A stretch of 33,855 nt of DNA. Origin: Bacteroidia bacterium (lineage in GTDB: Bacteria > Bacteroidota > Bacteroidia > Bacteroidales > Prolixibacteraceae). The stretch lies in contig JAPLDR010000043.1 of assembly GCA_026391655.1 (NCBI GenBank), positions 1 to 33,855 on the forward strand. The letters run 5' to 3'. The translations under genes were made by a program, and so were the position numbers. Shown here in pieces: positions 7,385 through 33,461 of the stretch. The notes beneath the pieces are model-generated. The model was not told the origin of the DNA. It was given only the letters and a program-made list of their open reading frames with translations, and ran no database searches. Every line of letters starts with the position of its first letter. Within the stretch, counting starts at the first letter, position 1.

Positions 7385-8212
7385 TTATTTTTGGTACGAT
7401 TCGATCGCCCTTTTAACCGAACCATGTATCAGCAACAATCTTCGCGCTTCGTCTGATGGGATATTAAGTTCATCAACAATCATCCGTGTACCGCGTTCGA
7501 TCAGTTTTTTATTCGTAAGCTGCATATTCACCATCTTATTCCCCTTTACCCTTCCCAATTTGATCATGATGGAGGTTGTGATCATATTAAGAATCATTTT
7601 TTGGGCTGTTCCTGCCTTAAGCCGGGTACTTCCCGTAACGAATTCAGGCCCGACAATTGCTTCTATCGGATATTCAGTGACTTCGGCTATTTCACTCCCG
7701 GGATTGCATGTAATACATCCGGTCAGTATGCCATTCTCACGGGCAAGTTTGATTCCTCCTATTACGTAAGGAGTTGTTCCTGATGCGGCAATACCTATAA
7801 CCACATCGTTTTTATTGATATTGAAACCCTGAAGCGATATCCACGCCTTATTCGGGTCATCTTCAGCTGCCTCTACCGATTTTCGAAGTGCAACATCACC
7901 ACCTGCGATCAGGCCGATCACCATACTTTCAGGAACGCCAAATGTGGGTGGTATCTCCGAAGCATCCAAAACTCCGAGTCTGCCACTTGTTCCGGCACCA
8001 AGGTAGAATACGCGCCCCCCTTTTTTCATTCGAACTTCGATTTTTTCAACTAAATTCTTGATTTGCGGAAGCGCTTGTTTGACAGCGATATGAACTTTAG
8101 AGTCTTCTTCATTAATGTTTGTAAGCAACTCCTCGATCGACATCTTGTCAAGATTATCGAAATTTGAAGGAGATTCAGTTACACTGGTTTTTCTTTTAGC
8201 TGTTGATTTCAT
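7385..8212 (-). CDS. murQ: N-acetylmuramic acid 6-phosphate etherase (MurQ)
   Basis: Cleaves the lactyl ether of MurNAc-6-phosphate to give GlcNAc-6-phosphate and D-lactate in the cytoplasm, the committing step of MurNAc recycling. The 275-residue protein is a SIS-fold enzyme with all the family marks: TESPSNFD (12-19), GAGTSGRLGVLDASE (72-86; Glu86 matches a catalytic Glu of the E. coli enzyme), EAAEDD (114-119), ASGTTPYV (143-150) and GPEFVTGSTRLKAGTAQK (188-205). Length is a little short of the roughly 300 residues common in the family but the catalytic part is complete. The gene follows the sugar kinase on the same strand after 92 bases, and a strong terminator follows it, so the two form a small operon. 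A 14-bp palindrome lies 22 bases ahead of the start codon. Confidence 0.96.
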   Translation of the reverse strand: MKSTAKRKTSVTESPSNFDNLDKMSIEELLTNINEEDSKVHIAVKQALPQIKNLVEKIEVRMKKGGRVFYLGAGTSGRLGVLDASEIPPTFGVPESMVIGLIAGGDVALRKSVEAAEDDPNKAWISLQGFNINKNDVVIGIAASGTTPYVIGGIKLARENGILTGCITCNPGSEIAEVTEYPIEAIVGPEFVTGSTRLKAGTAQKMILNMITTSIMIKLGRVKGNKMVNMQLTNKKLIERGTRMIVDELNIPSDEARRLLLIHGSVKRAIESYQK

Positions 8213-8234
8213 CTGTTAATAATTTGTTTTTAAT

Positions 8235-8248
8235 CCCGCATATGCGGG
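8235..8248. promoter_or_regulatory. Perfect 14-bp palindrome in the kinase-murQ gap
   Basis: CCCGCATATGCGGG is an uninterrupted GC-rich dyad in otherwise AT-rich sequence, between the kinase stop (8305) and the murQ start (8212). It could be an operator for a regulator that senses a murein sugar, a processing or attenuating hairpin in the kinase-murQ transcript, or a small repeat. No T-run of terminator quality follows on the minus strand. Confidence 0.5.
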
Positions 8249-8304
8249 AGATGGAATTCGGCCCGATCCATCAGGACTCATTTCATAATCTACTCAGTAT
8301 TTTT

Positions 8305-9144
8305 TTAGATAGCTTTAGTATTATGATATTTTATAAGCCCGTTCATCGGGGCACGTTCTATTTTTCCCAATTTAAGATGCTGTTCCTCAATGGCTTTTCG
8401 GAGTTGCGCCTCAAAATAGTAGGCTATGCTACCCGTAAAATGAATCGGCATCTGCCCGATTTCGGGGTATAACAGTAAATTACGGGTAATGAACTCACGA
8501 AAGCTGGTGATAACAATATTCTCTATTTCAGGATGTTTGATGTTTTTTGAAAGAAATGTTGTATAGCCAGCCAAATAGCGGCTTGGAAACGGCTTTTTAT
8601 AGACGTTTTCGAGAATCCCGGCAGCTGATGTGTGATAAATCTCAAAAAAGTCGTTAATCAACGATTGAGGTAACTGCTTTTTTAAAATATCCCCTATGAG
8701 CTTTTTCCCCATCACAGCTCCACTACCCTCGTCGCCCAGGATAAATCCAAGTGGAGAAACATTAGCAACAATTTTGCGTCCATTGTAGTAGCATGAATTT
8801 GAACCTGTTCCCAAAATACAGGCAAATCCCGGCTTATCCTGGCACAGCGAATGAGCCGCTGCTAAAAGGTCGCTTCCAATGAAAATTTCTTCAGTTTCAA
8901 ATACTTGTAAAAGAGCCTTTTTAACAATATCCTGTTTTTCCTGATTAATACATCCGGTTCCGTAAAAGAAAATAGCATTGAATTTTTTAGCTGCGGTATA
9001 CTCCTTATGCAAAATGGCCGAAATGTTTTCAGTTTCCTGATAAAATGGGTTGATTCCTGACGTGACCACTGTTTCGGAGGTTCCCCGATCACTTATCATA
9101 CACCATTCAGTTTTGGTTGTACCGCTGTCTGCAACTAAGATCAT
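8305..9144 (-). CDS. murK: BadF/BadG-family amino-sugar kinase, probable N-acetylmuramate kinase (MurK-like)
   Basis: Expected to phosphorylate MurNAc (perhaps also GlcNAc) at O-6 with ATP, giving the substrate of MurQ. The 279-residue protein is an ASKHA-fold kinase: phosphate-1 loop DSGTTKTEW (6-14), phosphate-2 loop LGTGSNS (111-117), and LGDEGSG (136-142), which in this family contacts the sugar and nucleotide. There is no export signal. It is the first gene of a two-gene minus-strand operon with murQ and diverges from the amidase gene that opens the large plus-strand run. From memory, Tannerella forsythia has a MurNAc kinase of this family next to murQ and an AmpG-like importer, which supports the assignment. 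The alternative is a plain GlcNAc kinase; the sequence alone does not separate them. Confidence 0.82.
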   Translation of the reverse strand: MILVADSGTTKTEWCMISDRGTSETVVTSGINPFYQETENISAILHKEYTAAKKFNAIFFYGTGCINQEKQDIVKKALLQVFETEEIFIGSDLLAAAHSLCQDKPGFACILGTGSNSCYYNGRKIVANVSPLGFILGDEGSGAVMGKKLIGDILKKQLPQSLINDFFEIYHTSAAGILENVYKKPFPSRYLAGYTTFLSKNIKHPEIENIVITSFREFITRNLLLYPEIGQMPIHFTGSIAYYFEAQLRKAIEEQHLKLGKIERAPMNGLIKYHNTKAI

Positions 9145-9481
9145 TATTTACAATAATTTTTTTGTGATGAAACGAAAAATTTCTATCTTTATCTCTCTTT
9201 GATCAACATCTATAAGGGTTTAAAAATAATGCGAATCAAGAATTAAACAACACTAAAGAAATAAAAAAACAGCAAATTATTTCGTGTTTTATAACATGTA
9301 TGACAAAAGTACAAATTTTTTAAAAATTAGTTCTATTTTTGGTGAGTATTTTCTGCCAATATTCAAAAGATCATTAAAAAGTCAGACTTTAGCCTTGCCA
9401 TGAACGACCTTTGAATTATGGCAAATTGAAGTCAGCAGATTGAATAAGATTAAACTTCAAGTCTATTTTAAAAGCTTGTTT
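9145..9481. promoter_or_regulatory. Divergent control region between the kinase-murQ and amidase operons
   Basis: This AT-rich 337-base region lies between divergent genes and shows no coding frame. Bacteroidota -7-like boxes face both ways: TACTTTTG on the minus strand (9311-9304) and TATTTTTG on the plus strand (9334-9341). Neither has a good TTTG partner upstream, so exact promoters are uncertain, but the geometry suggests that uptake and degradation genes may be controlled together. An in-frame TTG start at 9440 for the amidase is possible but less likely than the ATG at 9482. Confidence 0.4.
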
Positions 9482-12400
9482 ATGAAGAAATTTAACCGAC
9501 TCCACATAGGCATCATCATTCTGATCATTTCAGTCATCCCGTTTTTTGGTTTTTCGCAAATTGCAAAGCGATCCCGATCAACCATCAAAGCTGAAAGCCA
9601 TCTCAAGAAGCTGGAAAATCTGGTACCAGGTTGGCGTCATGTGGGTCGCATTCGCTTTGATTCTTTGTCAATCCGTTCAGAAAAGAAACTAATTCAGGTT
9701 TTTTTTACAAGTCCGCTTTCATATATTCCGGTAAGGGAGACTGAAGTTGCGAATGTTGAAAATTCGGTCAAAAAAGCTTTGGGACGAAAATTCAGAAACT
9801 ATTCTGTTGAAATCTATACCGATCATCATTTATTAAGAGAATTAGTTCCCAATTCGTTACGGACGACTATTCCCGTGGACCGAACAAGAATTTCAGGAGA
9901 AAAATCAGAAAGGATTCCTGTTGTAAGTCAAATGGGAAAAGAGAAACCTTTATCGGGCTTATACAATAATAATATCGCCATGTGGGACAGTCACGGATGG
10001 TATTACGAGTCGAAACTCGACCGATGGGAGTGGCAGCGAGCCCGCTTATTCGGTACAGTTGAAGATATGTCGACAATGAGTTTTGTATTGCCATATCTTG
10101 TTCCAATGCTGGAGAACAGTGGCGCTTCCGTTTTTCTGCCCCGCGAACGTGACTGGCAGTCACACGAGGTGATCGTTGATAATGACAAATCTACCGCAGG
10201 TTCTGAACTGATCATCCCTGACGGACTGGAGGTTGATCGATCAGTCAAAGGCTTTTTGCTAAAAGATTCATTGATTTCGGGTGAGAATCCTTTTCAATCG
10301 GGAACTTCACTCAGGTTTAGGAGTTCGAATGATAATAATGTTATCAGGTACATACCTTCTTTTAGTGAAAAAGGCAGGTATTCTGTCTCTGTTTCATACC
10401 AAAATCAGGATGAATCTTCACCCGAAGTGAAGTATACCGTTTATCATGCAGGAGGAAAAACCGATTTTTTGGTCAATCAGAAGATTGGAGGAGGAACCTG
10501 GATTTACCTGGGAACATTTGATTTTAATTCCGGGAAAAATCCTGAAATGGGAATGGTGACCATGAGTTGCAACAGTGAAAAGCCGGGTTTCATATCTGCT
10601 GATGCTGTGAAATTTGGCGGCGGAATGGGAAATATAGCCCGCCGGCCGGCTGATGAAATGATTCTGAACAAAAAGTCTCTCGCTGAAAAAAATACAGAAA
10701 ATGAGTCGGTTAAAAATGACCCACAACTATTTGATTATAAATTAAGTGGCAAGCCCCGTTACCTTGAAGCAGCAAGATATTACCTCCAAAGTGCCGGTTT
10801 CCCTGATACGCTTACGTATAATCTGAATAAAAATAAAAACGACTATAACGACGATTATCAGTCACGGGGAGCATGGGTCAATTACCTGATTGGTAAGCCA
10901 AATAATTCTAATAACCTGCACGATATCACCGGATTAAAAATTCCTGTTGATCTTGCATTTGCTTTTCATACCGATGCCGGAGTTACACCAAACGATTCAA
11001 TTATTGGAACACTTGGCATTTACAGCACCACTGCCAATCAGGGTATATTTTCAAATGGAAAATCCCGAATGGCAAGTCGCGACTTATCGGATATTATTCA
11101 AACACAATTAGTTGATGACATTCGGCAACTGTATAATCCACATTGGACACGACGCGGACTTTGGGACAAGCAATACTCCGAATCGTACCGTCCCAATGTA
11201 CCAACGATGTTGCTGGAGTTGCTTTCGCACCAAAATATTGCAGATATGAGATTTGGCCTGGATCCTCGATTCCGGTTTGACGTGAGTCGTGCCATTTACA
11301 AAGGAATATTGAAATTTCAGTCGTATCAGGAAAATCGTCCGTCAGTTGTTCAACCATTGCCCATTGATCATTTTGCAATTGAAAGATTGGGGGAAAACTC
11401 CATCAAATTGAGCTGGAGCGCTGTGAATGATCAGCTTGAGCCGAGTGCCAAACCGGATAAGTTCAAAGTTTATCAACGACTTGATAACAATGGATTTGAT
11501 AATGGTGTTATTGTGGAAGATACTGTTCTTGTTTTAAAACCTGGCCAGTTCGATCGGATTTATAGTTTTAAAGTTACTGCATTGAATAATGGTGGGGAGA
11601 GTTTTCCGGGTGAAACCCTTTCTGTCGGACTTAAAAGCAACAGTAAAGGCAATATTTTGGTAGTGAATGGATTTGATCGTATTTGTTCTCCTGCAATTTT
11701 TGACAACGGAATCACATCCGGAGTCGCCTGGTGGAAAGATCAGGGAGTCGCCGACCGACAGGATATCAGCTTTATAGGATTTCAATACGATTTCGACCGT
11801 AAATCAAAATGGCTCGATGACGATAGTCCGGGTTGGGGAGCAAGTTATGGTGACATGGAGGGAAAAGTGATTCCTGGCAACAGTTTCGATTATCCTATTG
11901 TACATGGAAAGGCGATTATGGCTACCGGCTATTCGTTTGCTTCCGTGAGCGATGAGGTTTTTTGTCAGAGTAAATACGATATTTCTCCCTATTTTGCTAC
12001 AGATCTGATTTTGGGAGAAGAGCGATCTACACGCAGTTTAAGAGATTCTATGATAATTGACTACAAGATTTACACACCCGCTCTGATGTCGAAGATTTCA
12101 GAGGTAACGAAAAGTGGCGGCAAACTTTTTATTTCAGGCGCTTATATCGGTTCGGAGTTTGGTGAGATTAACGATACCATTACTGCAGCATTTGCCAAAG
12201 ACGTTCTGCATTTTAATTGGCGAACTGGTCATGCTTCAAAAGGCGATGCCTTTTACACAACCGATTATGCCCGTAAGTGGCTAAATGGAAAATGGAATTT
12301 CAATGCAGGGTATCATCCTGAAATTTATACTGTTGAAGCTCCTGATGGAATTGAACCTGCCGGGAAAAATGCTATCACAGCTTTTCGGTATGGCGAAAAT

Positions 12401-12535
12401 AACCTAAGTGCCGGAATAATTTTCAACGGAAACTACCGGGTTGTTGCGATGGGAATACCATTCGAATCTATATTGAATAATACAGATCGTCAATCACTTA
12501 TGCAACAAATTATCAATTTTTTTGAATCAAAATAA
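9482..12535 (+). CDS. Exported N-acetylmuramoyl-L-alanine amidase with inserted golvesin-type domain, FN3 and a C-terminal domain
   Basis: Predicted to cut the MurNAc-L-Ala bond, freeing stem peptides from glycan. I start at the ATG at 9482, which gives a clean signal peptide (hydrophobic core IIILIISVIPFF, cleavage near FSQ). After an N-terminal region (about 30-130), an Amidase_3-like catalytic fold appears in two halves: WDSHG with His171 and WEWQRARLFG, then FHTDAG (His496) and TMLLELLSHQN with Glu579. Between the halves (about 250-385) sits an insertion ending in FISADAVKFGGGMG, typical of the golvesin C-terminal-like or 'xanthan lyase' module. A fibronectin III domain follows (about 625-715) and a 300-residue C-terminal domain begins NILVVNGFDR, possibly flavodoxin- or ThuA-like. 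Such proteins are often annotated xanthan lyase; the zinc-amidase residues argue against that. It is first in the long plus-strand run; the next gene begins 18 bases after the stop. Confidence 0.82.
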   Translation: MKKFNRLHIGIIILIISVIPFFGFSQIAKRSRSTIKAESHLKKLENLVPGWRHVGRIRFDSLSIRSEKKLIQVFFTSPLSYIPVRETEVANVENSVKKALGRKFRNYSVEIYTDHHLLRELVPNSLRTTIPVDRTRISGEKSERIPVVSQMGKEKPLSGLYNNNIAMWDSHGWYYESKLDRWEWQRARLFGTVEDMSTMSFVLPYLVPMLENSGASVFLPRERDWQSHEVIVDNDKSTAGSELIIPDGLEVDRSVKGFLLKDSLISGENPFQSGTSLRFRSSNDNNVIRYIPSFSEKGRYSVSVSYQNQDESSPEVKYTVYHAGGKTDFLVNQKIGGGTWIYLGTFDFNSGKNPEMGMVTMSCNSEKPGFISADAVKFGGGMGNIARRPADEMILNKKSLAEKNTENESVKNDPQLFDYKLSGKPRYLEAARYYLQSAGFPDTLTYNLNKNKNDYNDDYQSRGAWVNYLIGKPNNSNNLHDITGLKIPVDLAFAFHTDAGVTPNDSIIGTLGIYSTTANQGIFSNGKSRMASRDLSDIIQTQLVDDIRQLYNPHWTRRGLWDKQYSESYRPNVPTMLLELLSHQNIADMRFGLDPRFRFDVSRAIYKGILKFQSYQENRPSVVQPLPIDHFAIERLGENSIKLSWSAVNDQLEPSAKPDKFKVYQRLDNNGFDNGVIVEDTVLVLKPGQFDRIYSFKVTALNNGGESFPGETLSVGLKSNSKGNILVVNGFDRICSPAIFDNGITSGVAWWKDQGVADRQDISFIGFQYDFDRKSKWLDDDSPGWGASYGDMEGKVIPGNSFDYPIVHGKAIMATGYSFASVSDEVFCQSKYDISPYFATDLILGEERSTRSLRDSMIIDYKIYTPALMSKISEVTKSGGKLFISGAYIGSEFGEINDTITAAFAKDVLHFNWRTGHASKGDAFYTTDYARKWLNGKWNFNAGYHPEIYTVEAPDGIEPAGKNAITAFRYGENNLSAGIIFNGNYRVVAMGIPFESILNNTDRQSLMQQIINFFESK

Positions 12536-12553: not shown

Positions 12554-14023
12554 ATGAGAAATCTGATCACTTGTTTTATACCCGTTCAACATGGTACTGA
12601 TTTTAAACCAACGCTCAAAACATTAAGAGAATCGGGTGTTGTAGAAAAAATTATTCTGGTTGGCGATACCGAAAATTCAATTGAAGGAACAGATATCGCG
12701 AAAATTGCATTAGATAGTTTCAATTCGACAAAAGCGATAAAGGCGTTTGCAAAAAATGTAACTACTCCATTTATTTTGCTTTATACGAAGACATTACCAC
12801 TTGATCTGGGCCAAAATGCGTTGCATCGGATGGTGCAGGCCTGTAATAGCAGTGGCGCAGGGATGGTTTATTCCGACTATTTCGAGCAGAAAGAGGGCGC
12901 TCTGAAACCTCATCCCGTTATTGAATATCAGGAAGGAAGTTTACGCGATGATTTCGATTTTGGTTCTTTATTGCTCTATCGCACAAAAGCTTTTGTAGAA
13001 GCAGCGCAAAGTATGGATCAGGAATTTGAGCTTGCCGGTTTATACGACCTTCGGTTGAAAGTTTCGCAGAATTACAGATTGGTTCATTTGCCTGAATTGC
13101 TTTATACTGAACTTGAATTGGATACGCGTAAATCGGGAGAGAAAATGTTTGATTATGTCGATCCTCGTAACCGTTTCAAACAAATTGAGATGGAAAAAGC
13201 CTGCACAGCTCATTTAAATGTTGTTGGTGCCTGGCTCGCCCCAAAATTCAAAGAGATTGCTTTTTCAGCCGGTAATTTTAAATACGAAGCTTCAGTGATC
13301 ATCCCTGTCTGGAATCGTGCCAAGACAATTACTGATGCAATCAAATCTGTTTTGAGTCAGGAGGTTGATTTTGAATTTAATCTGATTATTGTCGACAACT
13401 ATTCCACCGATGGAACTTATGAACTGATCAAATCTTTTGCTGATTCAGACGACCGGATTATACATGTGATTCCGACACGAAAAGATCTTGGAATCGGCGG
13501 TTGCTGGAATGAAGCGATCAACCACCCTGCTTGCGGAAAGTTTGCCATTCAGTTAGATAGTGATGATTTGTATATTGATAATACAGTGATACAGAGCATT
13601 GTGGCATCTTTTTACGAACAAAACTGCGCTATGGTCGTTGGTTCGTATAAGATGGTCAACTTTAAATTGGAAGAGATTTCTCCGGGATTAATCGATCATA
13701 AGGAGTGGACACCCGAGAACGGAAGGAATAATGCACTGCGTATTAATGGATTAGGAGCTCCCCGAGCATTTTACACACCGGTACTTCGCGAAATTCAGGT
13801 TCCCAACGTAAGTTATGGCGAAGATTATGCATTGGGATTGGCCATAAGCCGGTATTATCAGATCGGACGAATTTATGTCCCGCTGTACCTCTGCCGCCGA
13901 TGGGACGAAAACTCCGATTCTTCACTCGATATTGTTAAAATGAATGCCCACAATTTTTACAAAGACAAAATCAGGACCCTTGAATTTTGGGCGCGCCAGC
14001 AGGCTGTCAAAGAGGGAAATTAA
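12554..14023 (+). CDS. Two-part glycosyltransferase with C-terminal GT2 domain, cytoplasmic
   Basis: The 489-residue protein has no signal or membrane segment. Residues from about 245 form a GT-A family 2 glycosyltransferase: SVIIPVWNR (247-255), IIVDNYSTDGT, LDSDDLY with a DxD-type metal site (335-338), GEDYALG (422-428) and RRWDENSD near the end. The first 240 residues look like a second, degenerate GT-A domain (ITCFIPVQHGTDF, FILLYTKTLPL, MVYSDYFE), so the protein may be a tandem or pseudo-tandem transferase. The domain predicts transfer of a sugar from a nucleotide sugar, but acceptor and donor cannot be read from the sequence. A biosynthetic enzyme inside a murein-degrading operon is unexpected; it follows the amidase closely and precedes a GalT-like nucleotidyltransferase, with which it may work. 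Confidence 0.82.
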   Translation: MRNLITCFIPVQHGTDFKPTLKTLRESGVVEKIILVGDTENSIEGTDIAKIALDSFNSTKAIKAFAKNVTTPFILLYTKTLPLDLGQNALHRMVQACNSSGAGMVYSDYFEQKEGALKPHPVIEYQEGSLRDDFDFGSLLLYRTKAFVEAAQSMDQEFELAGLYDLRLKVSQNYRLVHLPELLYTELELDTRKSGEKMFDYVDPRNRFKQIEMEKACTAHLNVVGAWLAPKFKEIAFSAGNFKYEASVIIPVWNRAKTITDAIKSVLSQEVDFEFNLIIVDNYSTDGTYELIKSFADSDDRIIHVIPTRKDLGIGGCWNEAINHPACGKFAIQLDSDDLYIDNTVIQSIVASFYEQNCAMVVGSYKMVNFKLEEISPGLIDHKEWTPENGRNNALRINGLGAPRAFYTPVLREIQVPNVSYGEDYALGLAISRYYQIGRIYVPLYLCRRWDENSDSSLDIVKMNAHNFYKDKIRTLEFWARQQAVKEGN

Positions 14024-23810: not shown

Positions 23811-26800
23811 ATGCTGAAGAATATACTGATTGGTTTACTGTTACTGCTAACGGTGATCTTCCCTTTGAAGTCACAGTCACAGGTAAATCTTGATAAGTTA
23901 GTCAACCACCCTTGGGTTGATTCTGTGTTTAATTCCCTTTCGCCTGATGAACGGATTGCTCAGCTGATCTGGATTGATGTTAGCGGTGACGAAGACTTGC
24001 AAAAGCAATTTCATGTTGCTGAACTTATTAAAAAGAATAATTTCGGAGGATTGGTATTCTTCGAAGGAACCGCCGTAAAACAATCGCAATTAATCAATTA
24101 CTATCAGTCGCTGGCCAAAACGCCGCTTATGATTGCCATGGATGCTGAATGGGGTCCGGGTATGCGCCTTGACGAAATTATACCATTTCCCTACAATATG
24201 ACTATGGGTGCTGCCACGGATAACGAACTGATCCGTAAGTGTGCCGCGGCTATGGCCGTTCAGTTGAAACGACTTGGTGTTCAGATCAGTTTCGGTCCTG
24301 TTTGTGACATCAATACCGAGCCGCTTAATCCGATTATCGGGATGCGTTCGTTTGGCGAATCGCGCGACTTGGTTACGGCCAAAAGTCTGGCTTATATGAA
24401 AGGCTTGCAGGAGAACGGAATTATTGCAGTAGCCAAACACTTTCCCGGACATGGTGACACTAAAACTGATTCACATTTGTCGTTACCACTCCTCCCCTAC
24501 CCGCGTCAACGACTTGATAGCATGGAGCTTTATCCTTTCAAAAGATTATCAGCCGAAGGAATTGGAGGAATTATGACGGCTCATATGCGCGTTCCGGCAC
24601 TCGATCCCAACGGTGATGGTCCTTCAAGTCTCTCGAATAGTGCCGTCGAAGGAGTGATCCGGAAAGAGTGGAATTATAAGGGACTGATTATCACCGACGC
24701 CATGAATATGGGCGGTGCCAAATTAACCGGAAAGACGAGCAGCATTGATGTTCAGGCAATCATAGCGGGGAATGATGTTATTGAATTCCCTGTTGATGGC
24801 GAGGAAACAATCAAAGCAGTAAAAGAGGCCATTCTTAAAAAGGAACTTTCGTGGGAAGATATTAATCTCAAATGCCGCAGAGTGCTGGCAGCCAAATATT
24901 TTGCAGGTTTAAATCACTTTCAGCCGGTAAAAATCCCGGGACTTGTTGCTGACCTGAATTCTTCTGAATCCCAATTCGCCCAACGACTTCTGGTTGAATC
25001 AGCACTTACACTGCTTGAAAATAAAAACAATTTGATCCCTTTTCAGGGATTAGATACACTCCATATTGCGGCGCTTTCAGTAGGATCATTAGGAGTTACA
25101 CCATTCCAAAAGATGCTTTGTAACTACACCAAAGTTGATTATTTTAATCTCTCTGAGGATTTTACAGAAGCTGAGCTGAACGGATTAACCCAAAAATTGA
25201 ACGGTTACAATCTTGTGATTACGGGTATACATTCCCTTTATGAAAGTAAAATCCGCCGAACTGTTAAAGTGGGCAACCTGATCCATATTACGCCCCAGCG
25301 TCCTTATGGTGTGACCGAAAACCTCGAAAATCTGCTTAGCCGTTTATCTTCGGTGAAGAATTCGGTTTTTGTTTTCTTTTCGAATCCATATGCCATTAAT
25401 GAGTTGAAAGACTTCGGCCATCCTGATGGTATGCTGATTGCCTATCAAAACACCACCTTCTCGCAGGAATTAGCCGCACAGTTGTTGTTTGGAGGAATCG
25501 GAGCCAGTGGAAAATTACCTGTCTCAATCGGTAATCACTATCGTGCCGGAGAAGGACTTACAATCAGTCAACCAATCCGTATAAAATATACGCTTCCCGA
25601 AGAGGTAGGATTAAATTCTGTAAAATTAAACGGACGCATCGACTCAATTGTGAATAATGCATTGTTAAAGAAGGCGTTCCCGGGTTGTAATGTTCTTGTA
25701 GCAAAAGATGGGAAGGTGATTTTTCAAAAAGCTTATGGTTTTCATACTTACGAAAACAGGATTCCTGCCTCTTTGGATGATATTTACGACCTGGCTTCTG
25801 TTACCAAAGTTTCCGGAGCGCTTCCTGCTATTATGAAAATGAATGAAGAGGGGAAATATCTTCTCGACGTACCATTTTCGACTTATTGGACCGACTGGAA
25901 AAAAGGTTTTCTGCATCCATCAAATAAAAGCGATATCACACTTCGGGAAATGCTTGCGCATCAGTCCGGGATAGTCCCTTTTATTCCGTTCTACAGACAG
26001 TCAATGAATGGTAAAGACTTATCTGGCAAATGGTATAGCGTCGCATCAGGCGATCCGTATAATCTGGAAGTTGCACCGGGACTATATCTCAATTCTAAAT
26101 TTAAGAACAAAGTTTTTAAGGCAATCAGAAAATCACCACTGAAAACGCGGGGAAAATATGTTTACAGTGATCTGTCGATTATTTTAACGCCTGAGATTAT
26201 TGAAAAGTTATCAGGAATGAAATTCACAGATTATCTTGATCAAAATTTCTACGGTCCGCTTGGTGCCACGACGATTACCTACCTGCCATCACATAAATTT
26301 TCAAACGATCAGATTGTCCCCACCGAATATGATGCCATATATCGTAAAGAATTGGTTCATGGCAGTGTACATGACGAGTCGGCTGCCGTATTTGGCGGGA
26401 TTGCCGGAAATGCCGGATTATTTGCTTCAGCTAACGATTTAGCAAAACTGGTACAAATGTATGTTCAGTTTGGAACATATGGTGGTAAACAATATTTGAA
26501 AAAATCGACTTTGGAAGAGTTCAACCGGGTTCAATTTCCGCAGAACAACAACCGTCGCGGATTAGGATTTGATAAGCCTTTGATTGATAATCAGAAACTT
26601 GATAAACATCAGGCCTATCCTTGCCCGAGTGCTACACCTCAAAGTTTCGGACATTCAGGCTTTACCGGAACATTTTTCTGGGCTGACCCTTCAAACGGAT
26701 TGGTCTACATCTTTCTTTCGAACAGGGTATACCCTACTCGCAATAACAATAAAATCAGTGATTTGAATGTAAGGACTGAGATTTTACAGGTAATGTATGA

Positions 26801-26852
26801 TGAAATCCGCGATGCAACAATAAAACATTTAAATACTGTTGAAATAGAATGA
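23811..26852 (+). CDS. Bifunctional GH3 beta-N-acetylglucosaminidase (NagZ-like) / class C beta-lactamase-like serine hydrolase
   Basis: A 1013-residue fusion with a signal peptide (cleavage near KSQSQ). The GH3 part (about 30-360) has the N-acetylhexosaminidase signature KHFPGHGDTKTDSH, with His214 and Asp216 of the acid/base dyad, and ITDAMNM with nucleophile Asp296; NagZ removes GlcNAc from GlcNAc-MurNAc units. A GH3 C-terminal-like domain spans about 395-600 (GASGKLPVSI near its end). The last 400 residues are a penicillin-binding/beta-lactamase fold with intact SVTK (Ser663, Lys666), YSD (Tyr785) and HSGFTG (His948, in place of KTG). The second half could be a D,D-carboxypeptidase, D-amino-acid esterase or other hydrolase of murein pieces; true beta-lactamase action is not implied. 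Unlike E. coli NagZ it is exported. The following gene begins one base after its stop. Confidence 0.93.
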   Translation: MLKNILIGLLLLLTVIFPLKSQSQVNLDKLVNHPWVDSVFNSLSPDERIAQLIWIDVSGDEDLQKQFHVAELIKKNNFGGLVFFEGTAVKQSQLINYYQSLAKTPLMIAMDAEWGPGMRLDEIIPFPYNMTMGAATDNELIRKCAAAMAVQLKRLGVQISFGPVCDINTEPLNPIIGMRSFGESRDLVTAKSLAYMKGLQENGIIAVAKHFPGHGDTKTDSHLSLPLLPYPRQRLDSMELYPFKRLSAEGIGGIMTAHMRVPALDPNGDGPSSLSNSAVEGVIRKEWNYKGLIITDAMNMGGAKLTGKTSSIDVQAIIAGNDVIEFPVDGEETIKAVKEAILKKELSWEDINLKCRRVLAAKYFAGLNHFQPVKIPGLVADLNSSESQFAQRLLVESALTLLENKNNLIPFQGLDTLHIAALSVGSLGVTPFQKMLCNYTKVDYFNLSEDFTEAELNGLTQKLNGYNLVITGIHSLYESKIRRTVKVGNLIHITPQRPYGVTENLENLLSRLSSVKNSVFVFFSNPYAINELKDFGHPDGMLIAYQNTTFSQELAAQLLFGGIGASGKLPVSIGNHYRAGEGLTISQPIRIKYTLPEEVGLNSVKLNGRIDSIVNNALLKKAFPGCNVLVAKDGKVIFQKAYGFHTYENRIPASLDDIYDLASVTKVSGALPAIMKMNEEGKYLLDVPFSTYWTDWKKGFLHPSNKSDITLREMLAHQSGIVPFIPFYRQSMNGKDLSGKWYSVASGDPYNLEVAPGLYLNSKFKNKVFKAIRKSPLKTRGKYVYSDLSIILTPEIIEKLSGMKFTDYLDQNFYGPLGATTITYLPSHKFSNDQIVPTEYDAIYRKELVHGSVHDESAAVFGGIAGNAGLFASANDLAKLVQMYVQFGTYGGKQYLKKSTLEEFNRVQFPQNNNRRGLGFDKPLIDNQKLDKHQAYPCPSATPQSFGHSGFTGTFFWADPSNGLVYIFLSNRVYPTRNNNKISDLNVRTEILQVMYDEIRDATIKHLNTVEIE

Positions 26853-26853
26853 G

Positions 26854-27876
26854 ATGATGCATCGAAAATACGAACCTGATTTTAACCAGTTATTGAAGGT
26901 ACTCCGATGTGAAAAGCCCGACCGACCTGTGTTGTTCGAGTATTTTACAAATGGTCCGTTAAACGAATACCTTGCAGGTCGTAAAAACGCTGATCCGGAT
27001 AATCTTGCAGAGACCATCGCGATTACGATTGAAGCCTTTACCAATGCAGGTTACGACTACGTCACAATTCCCTCGCGGTTCTACAGTGGTATGAAGTTCA
27101 CATTAGCAGCACACGAACAGAAGTCAACGGTTTCTCAAAATGACGGAGTTATGATTACAGATCGTGCCTCGTTCGAATCCTATCCATGGCCTGACCCTGA
27201 AAAGGGCGACTTTGATACTTTCTATCGGTTTGCGCCTCTGCTTCATAAGCAGATGAAATTTATTACTCCCGGACCAGGTGGTGTGCTTGAAAATGTGATC
27301 GATCTGGTAGGTTTCGAGCGGTTGTGCTATATGTTGTTTGAAGATGAACAACTTGTTCAGGATATTTTTGATGCTGTTGGTTCAAGACTATTACGGTTTT
27401 ACGAGATCCTTTCCTGTTTGGAAACTATTGGAGCACTGATAGTAAACGACGACTGGGGTTTCAAAACCCAGACAATGCTTGATCCCGATTCAATGCATCG
27501 CTATCTCTTCCCATGGCATAAAAAGATCGTTGAAGCAATTCATCTAAACGGAAAACCAGCCATCCTTCATTCATGCGGAAATCTTGAGACTGTGATGGAT
27601 TTTCTGATCGATGAACTCAAATACGACGCAAAACATTCATGGGAAGATTCGATTTGTCCCGTTGAAAAGGGATGGCAACAGTGGGGTGACCGGATTGCAA
27701 TTTTGGGCGGAATAGATATGGATTTTTTAGTAAGATCAACACCCGAAGCAATTCGCAACAGATCAATAGAAATGCTGAAATTAACGGGATCAAAAGGATA
27801 TGCCCTTGGATCAGGAAACAGCATACCTGCCTTTGTTCCTGTCGAAAATTACCTGGCAATGATTAGTGCGATTTAG
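26854..27876 (+). CDS. Uroporphyrinogen decarboxylase-family protein (methyltransferase-like), function unknown
   Basis: A 340-residue cytoplasmic TIM-barrel protein. LFEYFTNGP, TPGPGGVLENVIDLVGFE, NDDWGFKTQTMLDP, HSCGNLE (His239, Cys241) and ILGGIDMDFL place it in the URO-D superfamily, in the branch related to cobamide-dependent methyltransferases where His and Cys of HxCG bind zinc. True HemE motifs are not evident, so haem synthesis is unlikely. The start lies one base after the preceding stop (TGAGATGATG), with a second Met directly after, so it is translationally coupled to the GH3 fusion. Its substrate is unknown; the coupling suggests it handles something from murein or its uptake, but nothing in the sequence proves this. 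It ends the long plus-strand run. Confidence 0.85.
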   Translation: MMHRKYEPDFNQLLKVLRCEKPDRPVLFEYFTNGPLNEYLAGRKNADPDNLAETIAITIEAFTNAGYDYVTIPSRFYSGMKFTLAAHEQKSTVSQNDGVMITDRASFESYPWPDPEKGDFDTFYRFAPLLHKQMKFITPGPGGVLENVIDLVGFERLCYMLFEDEQLVQDIFDAVGSRLLRFYEILSCLETIGALIVNDDWGFKTQTMLDPDSMHRYLFPWHKKIVEAIHLNGKPAILHSCGNLETVMDFLIDELKYDAKHSWEDSICPVEKGWQQWGDRIAILGGIDMDFLVRSTPEAIRNRSIEMLKLTGSKGYALGSGNSIPAFVPVENYLAMISAI

Positions 27877-28160: not shown

Positions 28161-29405
28161 TTAATAAAGAAAATATTTTTTTGCTCTCACTCTGAATGCA
28201 TCAATATCCTTTTCCCACAACTGGCGGATTGATTCCACAAAGAATGTTTTGGAGAATTCAAGACGAATCCTGTCTGTTCCGCAAACTTTGTCAAACATAT
28301 TAAGTCGTGATTTTTCACACAATTCAAAAACATTTTTTTCGGGCCAGAGTTTGTGGCATTCCTGTAGCACATAGAATTGAACCAGAGACAATTCTGCATT
28401 TTTGTAATCGGTGACATATACCTGAATGCCATGAACAACACGATCTTTTGAAACGCTGTAATACGGAGTAAAATGGATCGGACGAAACTGCATACCGGGA
28501 AGTTTCAACTCGTTCATGCTTTTTGCCAGACTGTCTGCATTTATCCATTCGGCAGCAAATAGTTGAAACGGCAACGTGTAGCCGACACCAATATTCATCA
28601 CATAAAGTTCACCTAAAATACCGGATATCGGGTAAAAAACAGGCGAATAGGTTTGTGGAATATGGGGTGACGAAGGTATCCATGGAAGACCTGTTTTATC
28701 AAAGGTCAACTTTCGCTTCCAACCTTTCATTGGAATTACTATAAGCTTGCATTTAATCTTGTTCGCCAACAAACCTTCTTCATTTAAATATATGGCCAGC
28801 TCACCTACAGTAAGTCCGTGAATATATGGAATTGGAAACTGGCTCACAAATGAGGTGTATGCCGGTTCGGTCAGACAACCTTCCATTTTCAGTCCGCCTA
28901 AAGGGTTTGGTCTGTCCAAAACAACGAATTCGATGCTATTTTCAGCCGCAGCCTCCATGGCCAATCCCAACGAACTGATGTAAGTATATGAACGTGAGCC
29001 AATATCTTGTATGTCATACACAAGTACATCAATATCGCGCAACATTTCGGGTGTTGGTTTTCGGGTTTTTCCATAAATACTATAAACCGGCAATCCTGTT
29101 TCTGAATCCTTAAAATTCGAAACAGAGGTTCCGGCTGAATAATCGCCCCTGACTCCGTGTTCCGGACCATAGAGTGCAATCAGCTTTATCTCTTTTGAAT
29201 GGAAGAAAAGATCAATGGTCGATTGAAGGTTCCGGTCAACCCCTGTTGGATTTGTGATTAATCCCACTCTTTTCCCTTTGATTGCTGCAAAGTTTTGCCC
29301 TTTCAGTACCTCAACTCCGGTTCTTACCTTTCCGGCTGAAACTGTTGTCGTTAAAAGGGAGAATAGTAACAAGAACAGAAAATGTTTTCTAATTTTGAAT
29401 TTCAT
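28161..29405 (-). CDS. namZ: Exo-beta-N-acetylmuramidase NamZ (DUF1343, GH171), exported
   Basis: NamZ removes MurNAc from the non-reducing end of peptide-free glycan, the partner activity to NagZ, which removes GlcNAc. The 414-residue protein has a signal peptide (hydrophobic core to about residue 21, cleavage near VSA-GK) and the full family pattern: GVEVLKG (30-36), GLITNPTGVD (48-57), GPEHGVRGDYSAG (80-92, with the conserved Glu/His), YDIQDIGSRSYTYISSLG (130-147), VLDRPNPLGG, PYIHGLTVGELA, GLPWIPSSPHIP and NIGVGYT. The gene points away from the transglutaminase-like gene and shares a 96-base divergent region with it. With the exported GH3 fusion it would free both monosaccharides outside the cytoplasm, so the permease would import sugars rather than large muropeptides. 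Confidence 0.94.
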   Translation of the reverse strand: MKFKIRKHFLFLLLFSLLTTTVSAGKVRTGVEVLKGQNFAAIKGKRVGLITNPTGVDRNLQSTIDLFFHSKEIKLIALYGPEHGVRGDYSAGTSVSNFKDSETGLPVYSIYGKTRKPTPEMLRDIDVLVYDIQDIGSRSYTYISSLGLAMEAAAENSIEFVVLDRPNPLGGLKMEGCLTEPAYTSFVSQFPIPYIHGLTVGELAIYLNEEGLLANKIKCKLIVIPMKGWKRKLTFDKTGLPWIPSSPHIPQTYSPVFYPISGILGELYVMNIGVGYTLPFQLFAAEWINADSLAKSMNELKLPGMQFRPIHFTPYYSVSKDRVVHGIQVYVTDYKNAELSLVQFYVLQECHKLWPEKNVFELCEKSRLNMFDKVCGTDRIRLEFSKTFFVESIRQLWEKDIDAFRVRAKKYFLY

Positions 29406-29426
29406 GACATATTTGAATTAAAAAAG

Positions 29427-29462: not shown

Positions 29463-29501
29463 TATTACAACAATCGTAAAGATAAAAAAAGAGTTTAATA
29501 T

Positions 29502-30946
29502 ATGAAGAGTATTACAACTTACTTCGGCTTAATTATTTTAATCATAGGAGTAAGCTGTCAGCACCAGGTGCCCAGGTGCCGACAAGCCGCACACTCAATG
29601 ATATCGAAACGGCAGTTAAAAACGGCCAGTTAACGCTTGCGACCCGGTGGGCTGATTCACTGCTAAACAGTGGAAAAGTCGATTCATCGATGCAGATGAA
29701 ACTCACATCAATAGTTGATATGGCCGGACGGGTCAGAGCCGATTTTAATTTAGCAGAGCCTAAAGTAGAAAACCGTCTGAAGAAAGATTTTGGAGAATAC
29801 TCGCAAAATGACAGAGCCATGTGGGATAAAAATAACTGGCTTGAATACAGAATTTTAGATGGCGAAAAGCGTTACTTCAACCGGGCTGTTTCCAATCTTA
29901 AATTAATTCTCAAAAGTAAGCAGCCCAAACAATTGGGATCCCGGGAAGTGATACCTGATAAATTTTCTTTGTTCTGTCTGGAGCATTCACGCAAAGTGAT
30001 TAATTCAGGGAATTCTGACGGAAAGCCTGTCATCCCTGTTAAAATGAAGGTGATTTATCAACTAACGGTTAAAGCTGATGCGGTTCCTGATGGCGAAATT
30101 GTCCGGTGTTGGATGCCATGGCCACGCGAAACACATGATCGGCAAGGAGATATAAAACTACTTAAAACAGTTCCCGACAACCACTTTATAGCTCCGGATA
30201 CTACTGAGCAGCGTTCTGTATATATGGAGCAGCCGGCGTCAAAGGGGAAACCTGTTGTGTTTGAAATTCAATTCGAGTATAGGTCTGCGGCTCAGTACTT
30301 TGATTTAAACAAATTAAAAACCCTCCACTACGATACGACATCGGCAATTTTTAAAAAATATACAGCTGAACAATACCCTCAAATTGTATTCACTAACGAG
30401 ATTAAGCAATTGTCTGACAGCATAGTGAGTGGAATCACGAATCCAATAGAAAAAGTTAGAAAACTCTATTACTGGATTAATGACCATATCATCTGGACTG
30501 GTGCGCTGGAGTATTCAATTATGCCATTTATCCCCGGATATGTATTGAAGAACGGTCGTGGCGATTGCGGTATGCAGACCTTACTTTTTATGACAATGGC
30601 CAGGTATCAGGGAATTCCTGTTAAATGGCAGAGTGGCTGGATGATGCATCCGGGCGAAGTAAATTTGCACGACTGGAGCGAGGTCTTCTACGAGGGATTA
30701 GGTTGGGTTCCGCTTGATATGTCGTATAATCTTCAGAATTCAAAAGAAATCCGCGAGAAAGAATTTTATATCAGCGGAATAGATGCTTACCGCTTGATTG
30801 TGAACGATGCAATCGGTAGTCGGTTTGTTCCCAATAAAAAGTTTTTCAGGAGCGAACCTTATGATTTCCAGCGAGGTGAAGTGGAATGGCGTGGAGGAAA
30901 TCTCTACTTTAATCAATGGGATTACCATATGAATGTTGAATACTAA
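29502..30946 (+). pseudogene. Transglutaminase-like lipoprotein, frame broken by an 8-bp duplication
   Basis: The ATG at 29502 begins a clear lipoprotein signal (MKSITTYFGLIILIIGVSC, Cys at 19), but the frame stops early. The mature protein continues in another frame. Removing one of two tandem CAGGTGCC copies at 29565-29580 joins them exactly, giving CQHQVPTSRTLND and a 478-residue protein. The catalytic part is whole: NGRGDCGMQT (Cys353 in the repaired numbering), NLHDWSEVFY (His387) and VPLDMSY (Asp403), the papain-like triad. Exported bacterial proteins of this superfamily are often peptidases or amidases of unknown substrate; the neighbourhood suggests murein peptides. As it stands, a GTG at 29576 could start a 456-residue cytoplasmic form without a signal. 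The break may be decay, slippage-based switching, or an assembly error. Confidence 0.8.
29565..29580 (+). repeat. Tandem 8-bp duplication (CAGGTGCC x2) that breaks the gene
   Basis: Two perfect adjacent copies, 29565-29572 and 29573-29580, fall just after the lipobox codon of the transglutaminase-like gene. A single copy would restore the frame between signal peptide and mature protein. Confidence 0.9.
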
Positions 30947-30996
30947 AGTCCTGTTAAAAAACATATTGAAATCTAATCAGCGATTGAATTTAATAG

Positions 30997-31004
30997 TACA
31001 TTTG
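30997..31004 (+). promoter_or_regulatory. Candidate -7 box for the NlpC/P60 gene
   Basis: TACATTTG fits TAnnTTTG and lies about 40 bases before the ATG at 31045. No TTTG stands at a standard distance upstream, so the call is weak. The gene may instead be read through from the transglutaminase-like gene 98 bases upstream. Confidence 0.3.
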
Positions 31005-31044
31005 CATTACTAAAGATGTCATACAAGATACAAAACGCTCATTT

Positions 31045-32211
31045 ATGAAATTTATCTCTTCCTCTGTAGTTGTCATTTTCACACTTTTTCTAAGTTGCCA
31101 TCCAAGGTCGGCTGATTTGTTACAAAGTGAGATTGACAGTGTGGCAAACCGTTGGGTTCCTGATAAAAGAGTTGGAATTTGTAACCTCGTACTCGTGAAT
31201 GGACAAGGCAAAGAGTATATCCTAAAAGGCGAAACGTTGTTTCCCGGATCCAAAACAGAGGTATTACAACTGTTAACCAATAAGGGCCTCACAGTTGTTG
31301 ACAGTGTTATAGTTCTTCCCGACACGACTAAATTAGAAAAAAATTGGGGCTTAATATCTTTGAGTGTCGCCAATCTCCGAAGTAAACCTGCCCATTCTGC
31401 TGAGTTAGCTTCACAGGCAATCATGGGCACTCCTGTGCGTATTTTGAAGGAAAATGATGAATGGTTTTTAGTCCAGACTCCGGAGAATTATATAGCCTGG
31501 ACAAATAAATCATCAGTAAATCAAATGAATCGTTCAGAATTCAACGGCTGGAAAAATTCTGATCGGATGATGTTTACCGATACATATGGCTTTATTTCAG
31601 GAGATAGCAAGCTAACCACGGTAATGAGTGACCTGGTTGCCGGTGCTATTGTTGTTAAAAAATCAGAAAGTCAGAATATTGCAGAAGTTAGCCTTCCGGA
31701 TGGGAGAACAGGTTTTGTATCAAATTTAAAATGGCTGAATTTAAAACAATGGAAAGATACGGTTTCATTAATTAGTGATAATTTGATTGTTACGGGAAAG
31801 CGGTTTTTGGGCTTTCCGTATTTATGGGGAGGCACCTCTACAAAGGGAATGGATTGCAGCGGATTTTCAAAGACAATATATTTTCTCAACGGCGTTATTC
31901 TCGAGCGTGATGCCTCGCAGCAATTCAAACATGGTAAAGAGATTGATATTTCCTCTGGTTTGGATAATCTTCAAAAAGGAGATTTACTCTTTTTTGGTTC
32001 TTCGGAGTCGAAACGTATCACACATGTCGGCATGTACATTGGAGACAGTGAGTTAATACATTCATCGGGAAGAGTCAGGATTAATAGTCTTGATCCTAAA
32101 AGAGACAACTACAGTAAACATCTAAGATCTACTTTACTTGGTGCAAGAAGGATTATCGGATTTCAGCCTGAGCAAGGTAATTTGCCCATAAGGTCGCACA
32201 ATTGGTATTGA
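31045..32211 (+). CDS. NlpC/P60 endopeptidase lipoprotein with SH3-like domains (YkfC-like)
   Basis: Likely a gamma-D-glutamyl-diamino-acid endopeptidase that cuts murein stem peptides after D-Glu, releasing L-Ala-D-Glu. The 388-residue protein has a lipoprotein signal (lipobox LFLSC, Cys at 18), two SH3b-like regions (about 100-155, with VANLRSKPAHSAELASQA, and 170-235, ending GRTGFVS), and a C-terminal NlpC/P60 domain: GFPYLWGGTSTKGMDCSGF with Cys271, THVGMYIG with His327 and IHSSGRV with His339. This SH3b-SH3b-NlpC/P60 order is that of YkfC-type enzymes, which need a free N-terminal L-Ala and so act after an amidase. The next gene is a dipeptide epimerase, the next enzyme of the same pathway. 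Membrane-anchored and facing the periplasm, unlike cytoplasmic recycling enzymes. Confidence 0.92.
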   Translation: MKFISSSVVVIFTLFLSCHPRSADLLQSEIDSVANRWVPDKRVGICNLVLVNGQGKEYILKGETLFPGSKTEVLQLLTNKGLTVVDSVIVLPDTTKLEKNWGLISLSVANLRSKPAHSAELASQAIMGTPVRILKENDEWFLVQTPENYIAWTNKSSVNQMNRSEFNGWKNSDRMMFTDTYGFISGDSKLTTVMSDLVAGAIVVKKSESQNIAEVSLPDGRTGFVSNLKWLNLKQWKDTVSLISDNLIVTGKRFLGFPYLWGGTSTKGMDCSGFSKTIYFLNGVILERDASQQFKHGKEIDISSGLDNLQKGDLLFFGSSESKRITHVGMYIGDSELIHSSGRVRINSLDPKRDNYSKHLRSTLLGARRIIGFQPEQGNLPIRSHNWY

Positions 32212-32321
32212 TGTTAAATGGGTGCCGTGATTTGCAATCGCGGTAAAAAAATAAAAGCGATTTTAAATAGCCTGACCCCTGCAACCATAGGCCAAAACAT
32301 TTACAACTAAACAATCTTCAA

Positions 32322-33461
32322 ATGAGTAACAGACGTAATTTTTTAAAATACAGTGGGCTGGCAGCCGGCTCGTTAATTCTACCGAAAGCTATATCAGCTA
32401 CCGAAAGGAATCCAACCATCAAAACAAAATCAGGAAAACCTGCATCAATGAAACTACGTTTCCGTCCATATGATCTCCAGCTGAAACACGTCTTTACAAT
32501 CGCAAATAACTCGAGAACAACAACTCCTGTGATGCTTACCGAGCTGGAATATGACGGTCTCATCGGATATGGCGAAGCCAGTATGCCACCCTATCTTGGC
32601 GAAAGCCACAAAACAGCCGCAGAATTTCTTTCGAAGGTTGATCTTTCATCATATAACGATCCTTTTGAAATTGAAGATATCATTCAGTATATTGATAGTA
32701 TTGCTGTTGGTAATTATGCAGCAAAAGCCTCTGTAGATATTGCCTTGCACGATCTGGTTGGGAAAATAGTAAAACAACCGTGGCATAAACTTTGGGGACT
32801 GAATCGCACGAAAACGCCAAATACAAGTTTTACGATAGGAATTGATACACCTGAAGTAGTTAAAGAAAAAGTTAAGGAAGCTGAAATATATAAAATACTG
32901 AAAGTCAAACTAGGCCGTGAAAACGACAAAGAGATGATTAAAACCATCCGGTCGGTGACTAATAAACCAATTTGCGTCGATGTTAATCAGGGCTGGAAAG
33001 ACAAGCAGATGGCACTTGAAATGATTCAGTGGCTCGCAACCCAGGGAGTCGTTTTTGTAGAGCAGCCCATGAGTAAACTTGCTGTTGATGACATTGCCTG
33101 GCTAACCCTAAATAGTCCGCTTCCAATTATTGCCGACGAAGCTGTTCAAACAGTTAACGATGTTGCCGGATTAAACAAGATTTATTCCGGAATCAATATC
33201 AAGTTAATGAAATGTGGTGGTATGCGAAATGCCAATAAGATGGCACTTATCGCTAAAGCGATGGGTATGAAGGTAATGATTGGCTGTATGACCGAAACGT
33301 CATGTGCTGTATCAGCAGCTGCTCAGTTATCACCACTGGCCGATTGGGCTGACTTAGACGGGAACCTATTAATTAGCAACGATATATACGAAGGCACCAA
33401 AGTGGTAGACGGGAAGATTATCTTGTCGGATTTACCCGGTATTGGTATTCGGTTAAAATAA
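32322..33461 (+). CDS. L-Ala-D/L-Glu epimerase with twin-arginine export signal
   Basis: Converts L-Ala-D-Glu to L-Ala-L-Glu so that it can be hydrolysed and used. The 379-residue enolase-superfamily protein has the muconate-lactonizing-subgroup residues: KVK (Lys194, Lys196), metal ligands Asp220 (VDVNQGW), Glu247 (VEQP) and Asp272 (ADEAV), a lysine base in NIKLMKCGG (Lys294), and near the C-terminus DLDGN, the DxD motif that marks dipeptide epimerases by binding the substrate amino group. The N-terminus NRRNFLKYSGLAAGSLILP is a twin-arginine signal, so the enzyme is predicted to fold in the cytoplasm and be exported; E. coli and Bacillus homologues are cytoplasmic. It lies 110 bases downstream of the NlpC/P60 lipoprotein, matching the ykfC-ykfB pairing. 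Confidence 0.92.
   Translation: MSNRRNFLKYSGLAAGSLILPKAISATERNPTIKTKSGKPASMKLRFRPYDLQLKHVFTIANNSRTTTPVMLTELEYDGLIGYGEASMPPYLGESHKTAAEFLSKVDLSSYNDPFEIEDIIQYIDSIAVGNYAAKASVDIALHDLVGKIVKQPWHKLWGLNRTKTPNTSFTIGIDTPEVVKEKVKEAEIYKILKVKLGRENDKEMIKTIRSVTNKPICVDVNQGWKDKQMALEMIQWLATQGVVFVEQPMSKLAVDDIAWLTLNSPLPIIADEAVQTVNDVAGLNKIYSGINIKLMKCGGMRNANKMALIAKAMGMKVMIGCMTETSCAVSAAAQLSPLADWADLDGNLLISNDIYEGTKVVDGKIILSDLPGIGIRLK

Follow-up and report, generated by a model that had tools for sequence, protein, structure and literature searches.

The first 33,855 bases of the 54,374-base contig JAPLDR010000043.1 (hereafter, the window) belong to the genome (5.0 Mb, 149 contigs) of a Bacteroidia bacterium of the family Prolixibacteraceae, order Bacteroidales. 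Between positions 7,385 and 33,461 they carry what is probably a large gene set for taking the bacterial cell wall apart and reusing the pieces. Gene identities come from open reading frame (ORF) calls and from Pfam and NCBIfam profile searches of the window. Export was called by a crude hydropathy leader rule (threshold 2.0), with internal controls among the cluster genes, and "exported" in the following list denotes such a prediction. Gene content, core conservation, signals, active-site residues, fusions and co-occurrence are thus read directly from sequence.

7385–8212, minus strand: MurQ, N-acetylmuramic acid (MurNAc) 6-phosphate etherase, no export signal (TIGR00274, 315.1 bits; cut-off 302)
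8305–9144, minus strand: MurK-like MurNAc kinase, no export signal (44% identity to Tannerella forsythia MurK)
9482–12535, plus strand: exported split Zn-type amidase with a Golvesin_C insert (Golvesin_C, 77.2 bits; leader)
12554–14023, plus strand: GT2 glycosyltransferase, no signal peptide (PF00535, 83.9 bits)
14311–15228, plus strand: DUF4922 protein, no signal peptide (PF16269, 211.8 bits)
15280–16614, plus strand: SpoIID/LytB-type glycan-cleaving enzyme, no export signal (TIGR02669, 161.7 bits; cut-off 83.3)
16631–19102, plus strand: exported GH9 plus polysaccharide-deacetylase protein (PF00759, 236.8 bits; PF01522, 39.4 bits; leader)
19296–20984, plus strand: AmpG-type permease with an insert of about 128 residues (TIGR00901, 139.8 bits; under the cut-off of 350)
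21140–22639, plus strand: exported GHL10 glycosidase (PF02638, 267.5 bits; leader)
22651–23763, plus strand: NagX/MurT-family membrane protein, HGSNAT-type (NagX_SO_3504, 162.5 bits; under the cut-off of 480)
23811–26852, plus strand: exported NagZ-type GH3 fused to a beta-lactamase/PBP4B-like domain (PF00933, 236.6 bits; PF00144, 151.5 bits)
26854–27876, plus strand: URO-D/MtaA-like protein (PF01208, 74.1 bits)
28161–29405, minus strand: exported NamZ exo-N-acetylmuramidase (NamZ_N, 278.3 bits; NamZ_C, 133.1 bits)
29502–30946, plus strand: transglutaminase-like protein (PF01841, 68.8 bits; leader in 6/6 orthologues)
31045–32211, plus strand: exported YkfC-type NlpC/P60 endopeptidase with an SH3 domain (PF00877, 81.2 bits; leader)
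32322–33461, plus strand: dipeptide-epimerase-like protein of the enolase superfamily with a twin-arginine signal (Protein Data Bank (PDB) entry 3iji, 493.7 bits)

The enzymes named in an initial annotation of this DNA are all found at their positions by the ORF calls and profiles, and its description of the region as a locus for taking apart and salvaging peptidoglycan, with hydrolases that are for the most part exported, agrees with the families, active sites and leaders. It had passed over the GT2, DUF4922, SpoIID, GH9-deacetylase, NagX/MurT-like, URO-D and transglutaminase-like genes. The locus most likely holds an exported half together with a previously unrecognised, putatively cytoplasmic half, for which the GT2, DUF4922 and SpoIID proteins (the trio) are the candidates.

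The amidase, GH9-deacetylase, GHL10, GH3, NamZ and NlpC proteins of the window pass the leader rule, and the epimerase, with its twin-arginine motif, brings the enzymes with export signals to seven, in keeping with the earlier statement that most of the hydrolases carry signal peptides. Leaders recur among the orthologues of NamZ (32/36), the amidase (29/37), GHL10 (11/15) and NlpC (13/15), and in all of those of GH3 (8/8), GH9 (8/8) and the transglutaminase-like protein; the leaderless controls were MurQ (33/34), MurK (40/41), GT2 (77/77, at the chosen start) and DUF4922 (76/77). Catalytic-type residues are conserved in the amidase, GH3, NamZ and NlpC proteins. In the amidase, H171, E194, H496 and E579 are each at least 97% conserved among 37 sequences, and the weak match to Amidase_3 (21.7 bits, below the 27-bit cut-off) arises because the Golvesin_C domain interrupts the Amidase_3 part. 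The GH3 protein has the KHFPGHG..DSH motif and is closest in the PDB to YbbD (3bmx, 203.7 bits), while NamZ matches 4k05 with 543.3 bits. The NlpC/P60 protein, related to 3pvq (197.5 bits) and 3npf (195.4 bits), conserves C271, H327, Y149 and D289 in 16 sequences. By position, as judged by eye, these correspond to the YkfC signature, i.e., a Cys/His centre, a conserved Tyr of the SH3b domain and an Asp that accommodates a free N-terminal L-Ala (PMC2954226). The transglutaminase-like gene shows, in a three-frame view, a lipoprotein-like leader at 29502 that is out of frame with its body, which runs from 29576; this frame break may be real or may stem from the assembly.

The epimerase aligns with 3iji from residue 43 onward, and the part upstream, MSNRRNFLKYSGLAAGS, includes the twin-arginine motif RRNFLK. 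Entry 3iji is titled muconate cycloisomerase only, and the entry named "Dipeptide Epimerase" (3jva) scores 135.6 bits; the protein also lies below the cut-off of the NCBIfam epimerase models. A TatC protein of the twin-arginine translocation (Tat) system is present in the genome (220.8 bits). The conservation of the signal was assessed in 32 distinct orthologue rows, which remained from 45 loci after removal of those with identical last 150 residues, fewer than 300 residues or no match. By script, a twin arginine lies near the start in 19 rows, Arg-Lys in two and neither in 11; about 18 of the 32 are credible Tat epimerases, L121 being judged spurious and L110 and L115 depending on non-ATG starts. 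An NlpC gene occurs in the fetched stretch of 15 of the 18. Mapped on the epimerase tree with L121 included, the Tat label requires five changes, a number equally low in one of 500 shuffles.

Outside the inner membrane, the amidase would strip stem peptides from the glycan, and GHL10, possibly together with the GH9-deacetylase protein, would open the naked chains, from whose non-reducing ends the NagZ-type GH3 and NamZ could release N-acetylglucosamine (GlcNAc) and MurNAc. The YkfC-type endopeptidase would trim the free peptide to L-Ala-D-Glu, and the epimerase, predicted to be exported by the Tat route, would convert this to L-Ala-L-Glu.

Such an exported salvage scheme is not new in kind. 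Bacillus subtilis salvages muropeptides with an exported NagZ, amidase and NamZ (NagZ-AmiE-NamZ), so the exported GH3 and NamZ (NagZ/YbbD and NamZ/YbbC in Bacillus) are common to both systems. Compared with Bacillus salvage, the window has an AmpG. As in the YkfB-YkfC pair of Bacillus, a YkfC-type endopeptidase gene lies beside that of the epimerase; exported YkfC was proposed to degrade murein peptides outside the B. cereus cell, whereas the YkfB epimerases of B. subtilis and B. cereus have no predicted signal peptide (PMC2954226). The window epimerase differs from the latter in its Tat-type signal, its location being predicted from sequence, and among open-licence PubMed Central (PMC) papers, as far as their available text goes, we found no match joining "dipeptide epimerase" with "signal peptide". 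The E. coli system (AmpG/NagZ/LdcA/YcjG) shares with the window an AmpG-type permease, MurQ, a NagZ-type GH3 and an epimerase-type enzyme, but the GH3 and epimerase of the window bear export signals.

The candidates for a cytoplasmic half have the opposite character. The SpoIID protein of the window has neither a leader nor a twin-arginine motif and, like that of T. forsythia, begins straight with the folded domain. By rule, the leader is absent in 100 of 102 orthologues, the two exceptions being, by eye, hydrophobic starts of the domain itself; 90 of 103 rows extend at most 10 residues ahead of the first residue of the window protein, and fusions account for ten of the remaining 13. Leaders in the SpoIID family are detectable, since two distant homologues (L095 and L096, 24–26% identity) have clear ones; in these loci, from another family, the SpoIID gene adjoins AmpG, amidase and GHL10 genes. 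E126, C189, H193 and C194 are identical in 103/103 rows, and in the SEM motif the Glu is aligned with its counterpart in the SpoIID lytic transglycosylases 4rwr and 5i1t. The domain is shared with these enzymes, in comparison with which the window protein lacks an export signal and has relatives (10 loci, triple chains included) fused to nucleotide-type enzymes; two of the ten, L200 and L202, match at 99.5% across 400 residues and were treated as a single case. No cytoplasmic SpoIID of Bacteroidota was seen in the titles and abstract openings of open-licence PMC papers.

Among the 77 DUF4922 ORFs, 15 are fused: to SpoIID in eight loci, to GT2 in five (L152, L209, L240, L242 and L247), and in two Prevotella loci (L246 and L251, the latter confirmed by Pfam) GT2, DUF4922 and SpoIID form a single chain. 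The HxHxQ and CFLC motifs of DUF4922 are invariant in 22 sequences, and its AlphaFold2 model (pLDDT 92.3) has Ap4A phosphorylase 4i5v as top PDB match (Foldseek E-value 1.8e-10, TM-score 0.65), from which it is predicted to be a nucleotidyltransferase or phosphorylase of the GalT/Apa2 branch of the HIT superfamily. Open-licence PMC papers that mention DUF4922 were, in the text available, plant papers only. Because nucleotide substrates would be expected for both GT2 and DUF4922, we infer that the trio should be intracellular.

Neighbourhoods were compared in the best 80 named loci of at least 562 matches to the SpoIID alignment scan, with flanks of at most 10 kb to either side, many of them cut by contig ends. 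Four or more further cluster genes are present in 47 of these loci and in 26 of the 36 longest, and the association of the cluster exceeds chance. The most frequent neighbours are GT2 (61), AmpG (60) and DUF4922 (56), followed by the amidase (34), MurK (32), NamZ (32), MurQ (25) and NagX (21), and then by the GH9-deacetylase (9), GHL10 (7), GH3 (6), the transglutaminase (3), NlpC (2), the epimerase (2) and URO-D (0). GT2 (60/61), DUF4922 (55/56), the amidase (34/34), AmpG (60/60) and NagX (21/21) keep to the strand of SpoIID; MurK, MurQ and NamZ occur on either strand. The nearest named relative, L201, retains the window gene order from MurQ to NagX, and the names attached to the SpoIID-type loci include Bacteroidota from the gut, the mouth and the environment. 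Core orthologues were seen in Bacteroides clarus (L215) and B. graminisolvens (L199). The initial annotation had offered a conserved neighbourhood as a check of its reading, and this stands for the core; the outer genes (GHL10, GH3, transglutaminase, NlpC and epimerase) occur in two to seven of the 80 loci. URO-D was rejected as part of the cluster and is probably a passenger.

The nine genes of the published ampG-murTKQ operon of T. forsythia (Tanf_08345-08385), located on contig082 of strain ATCC 43037 (L210), all have homologues in the window, 41–63% identical and in operon order on the T. forsythia contig; the highest value belongs to MurQ (63%), with 58% for NamZ, and the amidase is 46% identical to the "xanthan lyase" of the operon. 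The cluster is, by sequence comparison, an enlarged version of this operon. The amidase, GT2, DUF4922, SpoIID, AmpG and NamZ genes are ordered alike in both, with extra genes between them in the window. Relative to the operon, the window gains GHL10, GH3-beta-lactamase, GH9-deacetylase, NlpC, epimerase and transglutaminase genes. The T. forsythia operon is transcribed as a single transcript (PMC5388701). In the window, unlike there, the other strand carries murK, murQ and namZ, an arrangement at odds with one transcript of all nine genes. A second MurK-like gene, divergent and upstream of the amidase gene, was observed at 3214–4038 of L210 and is possibly the published paralogue K1058. Aligned with 8oqw, the MurK-like kinase of the window has by eye the equivalents of D95, N119, S133-P134-L135 and D141, the signature residues of MurK (PMC10465942).

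The AmpG of the window is 45% identical to that of T. forsythia over 268 residues. An insert of about 128 residues (173–300), absent from the T. forsythia protein, is modelled as strands between helices 135–170 and 304–329 (pLDDT 77) and probably sits in a periplasmic loop; the protein scores under the TIGR00901 cut-off, and the insert splits it. Inserts of 112–205 residues occur at the same place in 22 of the 28 AmpG sequences chosen for alignment. The NagX protein is 41% identical to the product encoded at the MurT position of T. forsythia, between NamZ and MurK, and from this placement it is taken as the MurT homologue. Its H39 aligns with H297 of HGSNAT and is a His in 26/26 rows, T. forsythia included. 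In HGSNAT this residue is catalytic; a distant relationship between NagX and TfMurT has been noted, along with the proposal that NagX works as a transmembrane acetyltransferase and not as a transporter (PMC9007349). MurNAc may enter through the MurT-like protein or by some other route, after which MurK and MurQ would convert it to GlcNAc-6-phosphate.

It had been proposed that breakdown is complete before import, opposite to the E. coli scheme. A fully external process, with import of monosaccharides and dipeptides alone and with AmpG and SpoIID vestigial or kept for own turnover, would suit the export signals of the NagZ-type GH3, NamZ, NlpC and epimerase as well as the leaders on both NagZ-motif GH3 proteins of the genome. 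We regard it as quite improbable: an AmpG-type permease is kept, SpoIID has no export signal and is most often flanked by GT2, AmpG and DUF4922, and AmpG of T. forsythia imports disaccharides and is required for growth on peptidoglycan (PMC7670621). A two-compartment peptidoglycan salvage locus, in which predicted exported hydrolases are joined by a cytoplasmic trio fed by AmpG, accounts for these features, and we assign it a probability of roughly 0.7. Disaccharides would enter via AmpG and be processed by the GT2, DUF4922 and SpoIID proteins as one cytoplasmic unit; the activities and substrates, the location of each protein and the link between the trio and AmpG are predictions throughout.

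The likely tie of the trio to salvage is suggested by gene co-occurrence. The order was sampled with one genome per genus, 99 in total; AmpG was detected in 23 (E-value 1e-30), SpoIID in 22 (1e-30) and DUF4922 in 21 (1e-15), the sets being nested, DUF4922 inside SpoIID inside AmpG. SpoIID and AmpG lie at most 10 kb apart in 19 of the 22 genomes with both and on separate contigs in three. Neighbourhoods of AmpG were examined in 20-kb stretches, 23 from the same order and 16 from other members of the phylum. The arrangement GT2-DUF4922-SpoIID-AmpG often recurs in the relatives of the same order, some of which add NamZ, NagX, MurK, MurQ or the amidase; the 23 stretches contain SpoIID (18), DUF4922 (14), GT2 (13), NamZ (7), MurQ (7) and the amidase (5).

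Several points weigh against the two-compartment reading. The co-occurrence in the 99 genomes is uncorrected for shared ancestry. AmpG does without the trio elsewhere, with SpoIID in 1/16 stretches beyond the order against 18/23 within it; DUF4922, GT2 and NamZ also occur once each in these 16, which contain in addition the amidase (4), GHL10 (4), GH3 (9) and NlpC and the epimerase (2). The latter two are found near AmpG in 0/23 stretches of the order and 2/16 of the others, and near SpoIID in just 2/80 loci, although in the window they lie about 15 kb away, past the 10-kb flank. The window epimerase itself fails the leader rule (1.44 against 2.0), as do all but one of 14 epimerases, because Tat signals are less hydrophobic. 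Conversely, 20 of the 80 SpoIID loci have no AmpG in their stretch; four of these (L173, L180, L194 and L231) end less than 200 bases from SpoIID, and eight are titled Ignavibacteria, Ignavibacteriales or Melioribacteraceae. AnmK, which acts on anhydroMurNAc, is absent in three of seven SpoIID genomes tested, T. forsythia among them. Finally, SpoIID of the known type cleaves MurNAc-GlcNAc bonds, and this bond is absent from the GlcNAc-MurNAc disaccharide. A chlamydial SpoIID is described as both a lytic transglycosylase and a muramidase (PMC9928106), so hydrolysis is possible for SpoIID.

These observations bear on an alternative that we consider unlikely, i.e., that the trio builds or trims a different envelope glycan and is just a neighbour of ordinary salvage genes. 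Two of the trio look biosynthetic (a glycosyltransferase and a nucleotidyltransferase), a GT4-type glycosyltransferase is by eye a neighbour in five of the 20 AmpG-less loci, the SpoIID of the trio is missing from 15 of the 16 AmpG stretches beyond the order, and the T. forsythia operon had been linked to glycosylation in an earlier study (cited in PMC5388701). Against this stand the nested distribution relative to AmpG across the sampled order, the adjacency to AmpG and, in T. forsythia, the shared transcript of the trio genes, ampG and murTKQ (PMC5388701).

A cytoplasmic NagZ was rejected as the inside enzyme: of 14 GH3 matches in the genome, both NagZ-motif proteins have leaders. The second of these (L256), elsewhere in the genome, has a 1015-codon open frame. 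In L261, a leaderless GH3, the stretch KHFAGRG..TDAH is divergent and a run is masked, and the GH3 of L263 is cut by the contig end, so a cytoplasmic hexosaminidase may yet be encoded. In T. forsythia, GH3 matches occur at three places, each with a leader-like start. Outside the window, the genome encodes AnmK, two EPSP-type enzymes and an S66 peptidase; the same searches in T. forsythia returned no AnmK, no S66 peptidase and one EPSP-type enzyme, the second one here being MurA-like. MurNAc auxotrophy was rejected as the reason for the locus in view of these EPSP-type enzymes, whose presence means that the organism is not evidently a MurNAc auxotroph.

Downstream on the same contig (35688–43310, or 1833–9455 of L079) lie a TonB-plug/SusD-like pair as well as the gene of a second Amidase_3 protein, which has an AMIN domain, and a GntR/FCD regulator follows the cluster as well. 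It is rather doubtful that the locus mainly feeds on the walls of other bacteria. The exported enzymes, this pair and the second amidase would fit such a role, but the TonB-plug/SusC-like frame is in pieces, and identical enzymes would be needed for recycling of the organism's own wall; sequence cannot separate the two uses. Upstream, three tandem, similar M23 peptidase-like ORFs occupy 141–3260 (PF01551 in the third); they were rejected as part of the cluster, the third ORF being matched in 1/80 SpoIID loci. At 3448–4946, on the minus strand, a gene that is esterase-like by eye reads as two overlapping ORFs, possibly through a frame break, and a Pfam search with the shorter ORF gave no match.

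For the chemistry inside the cell, the Ap4A and GDP-galactose phosphorylases are relatives that serve as a model for the DUF4922 reaction. On a highly speculative scheme, GT2 would run in reverse (GlcNAc-MurNAc + UDP to UDP-GlcNAc + MurNAc), DUF4922 would split this UDP-GlcNAc with phosphate to yield GlcNAc-1-phosphate and UDP, and cytoplasmic SpoIID would prepare longer or anhydro-ended fragments. If true, the GT2-DUF4922 couple would achieve a net energy-saving phosphorolysis of the wall disaccharide imported by AmpG, and this would be a third muropeptide route, in addition to hydrolysis by NagZ and to exo-lytic digestion outside the cell.

The processing of the fragments imported by T. forsythia AmpG is named as an open question in the conclusion of PMC7670621, and the trio offers a concrete candidate for it. 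Both an intracellular SpoIID enzyme and a Tat-exported dipeptide epimerase would run counter to the usual compartment assignments.

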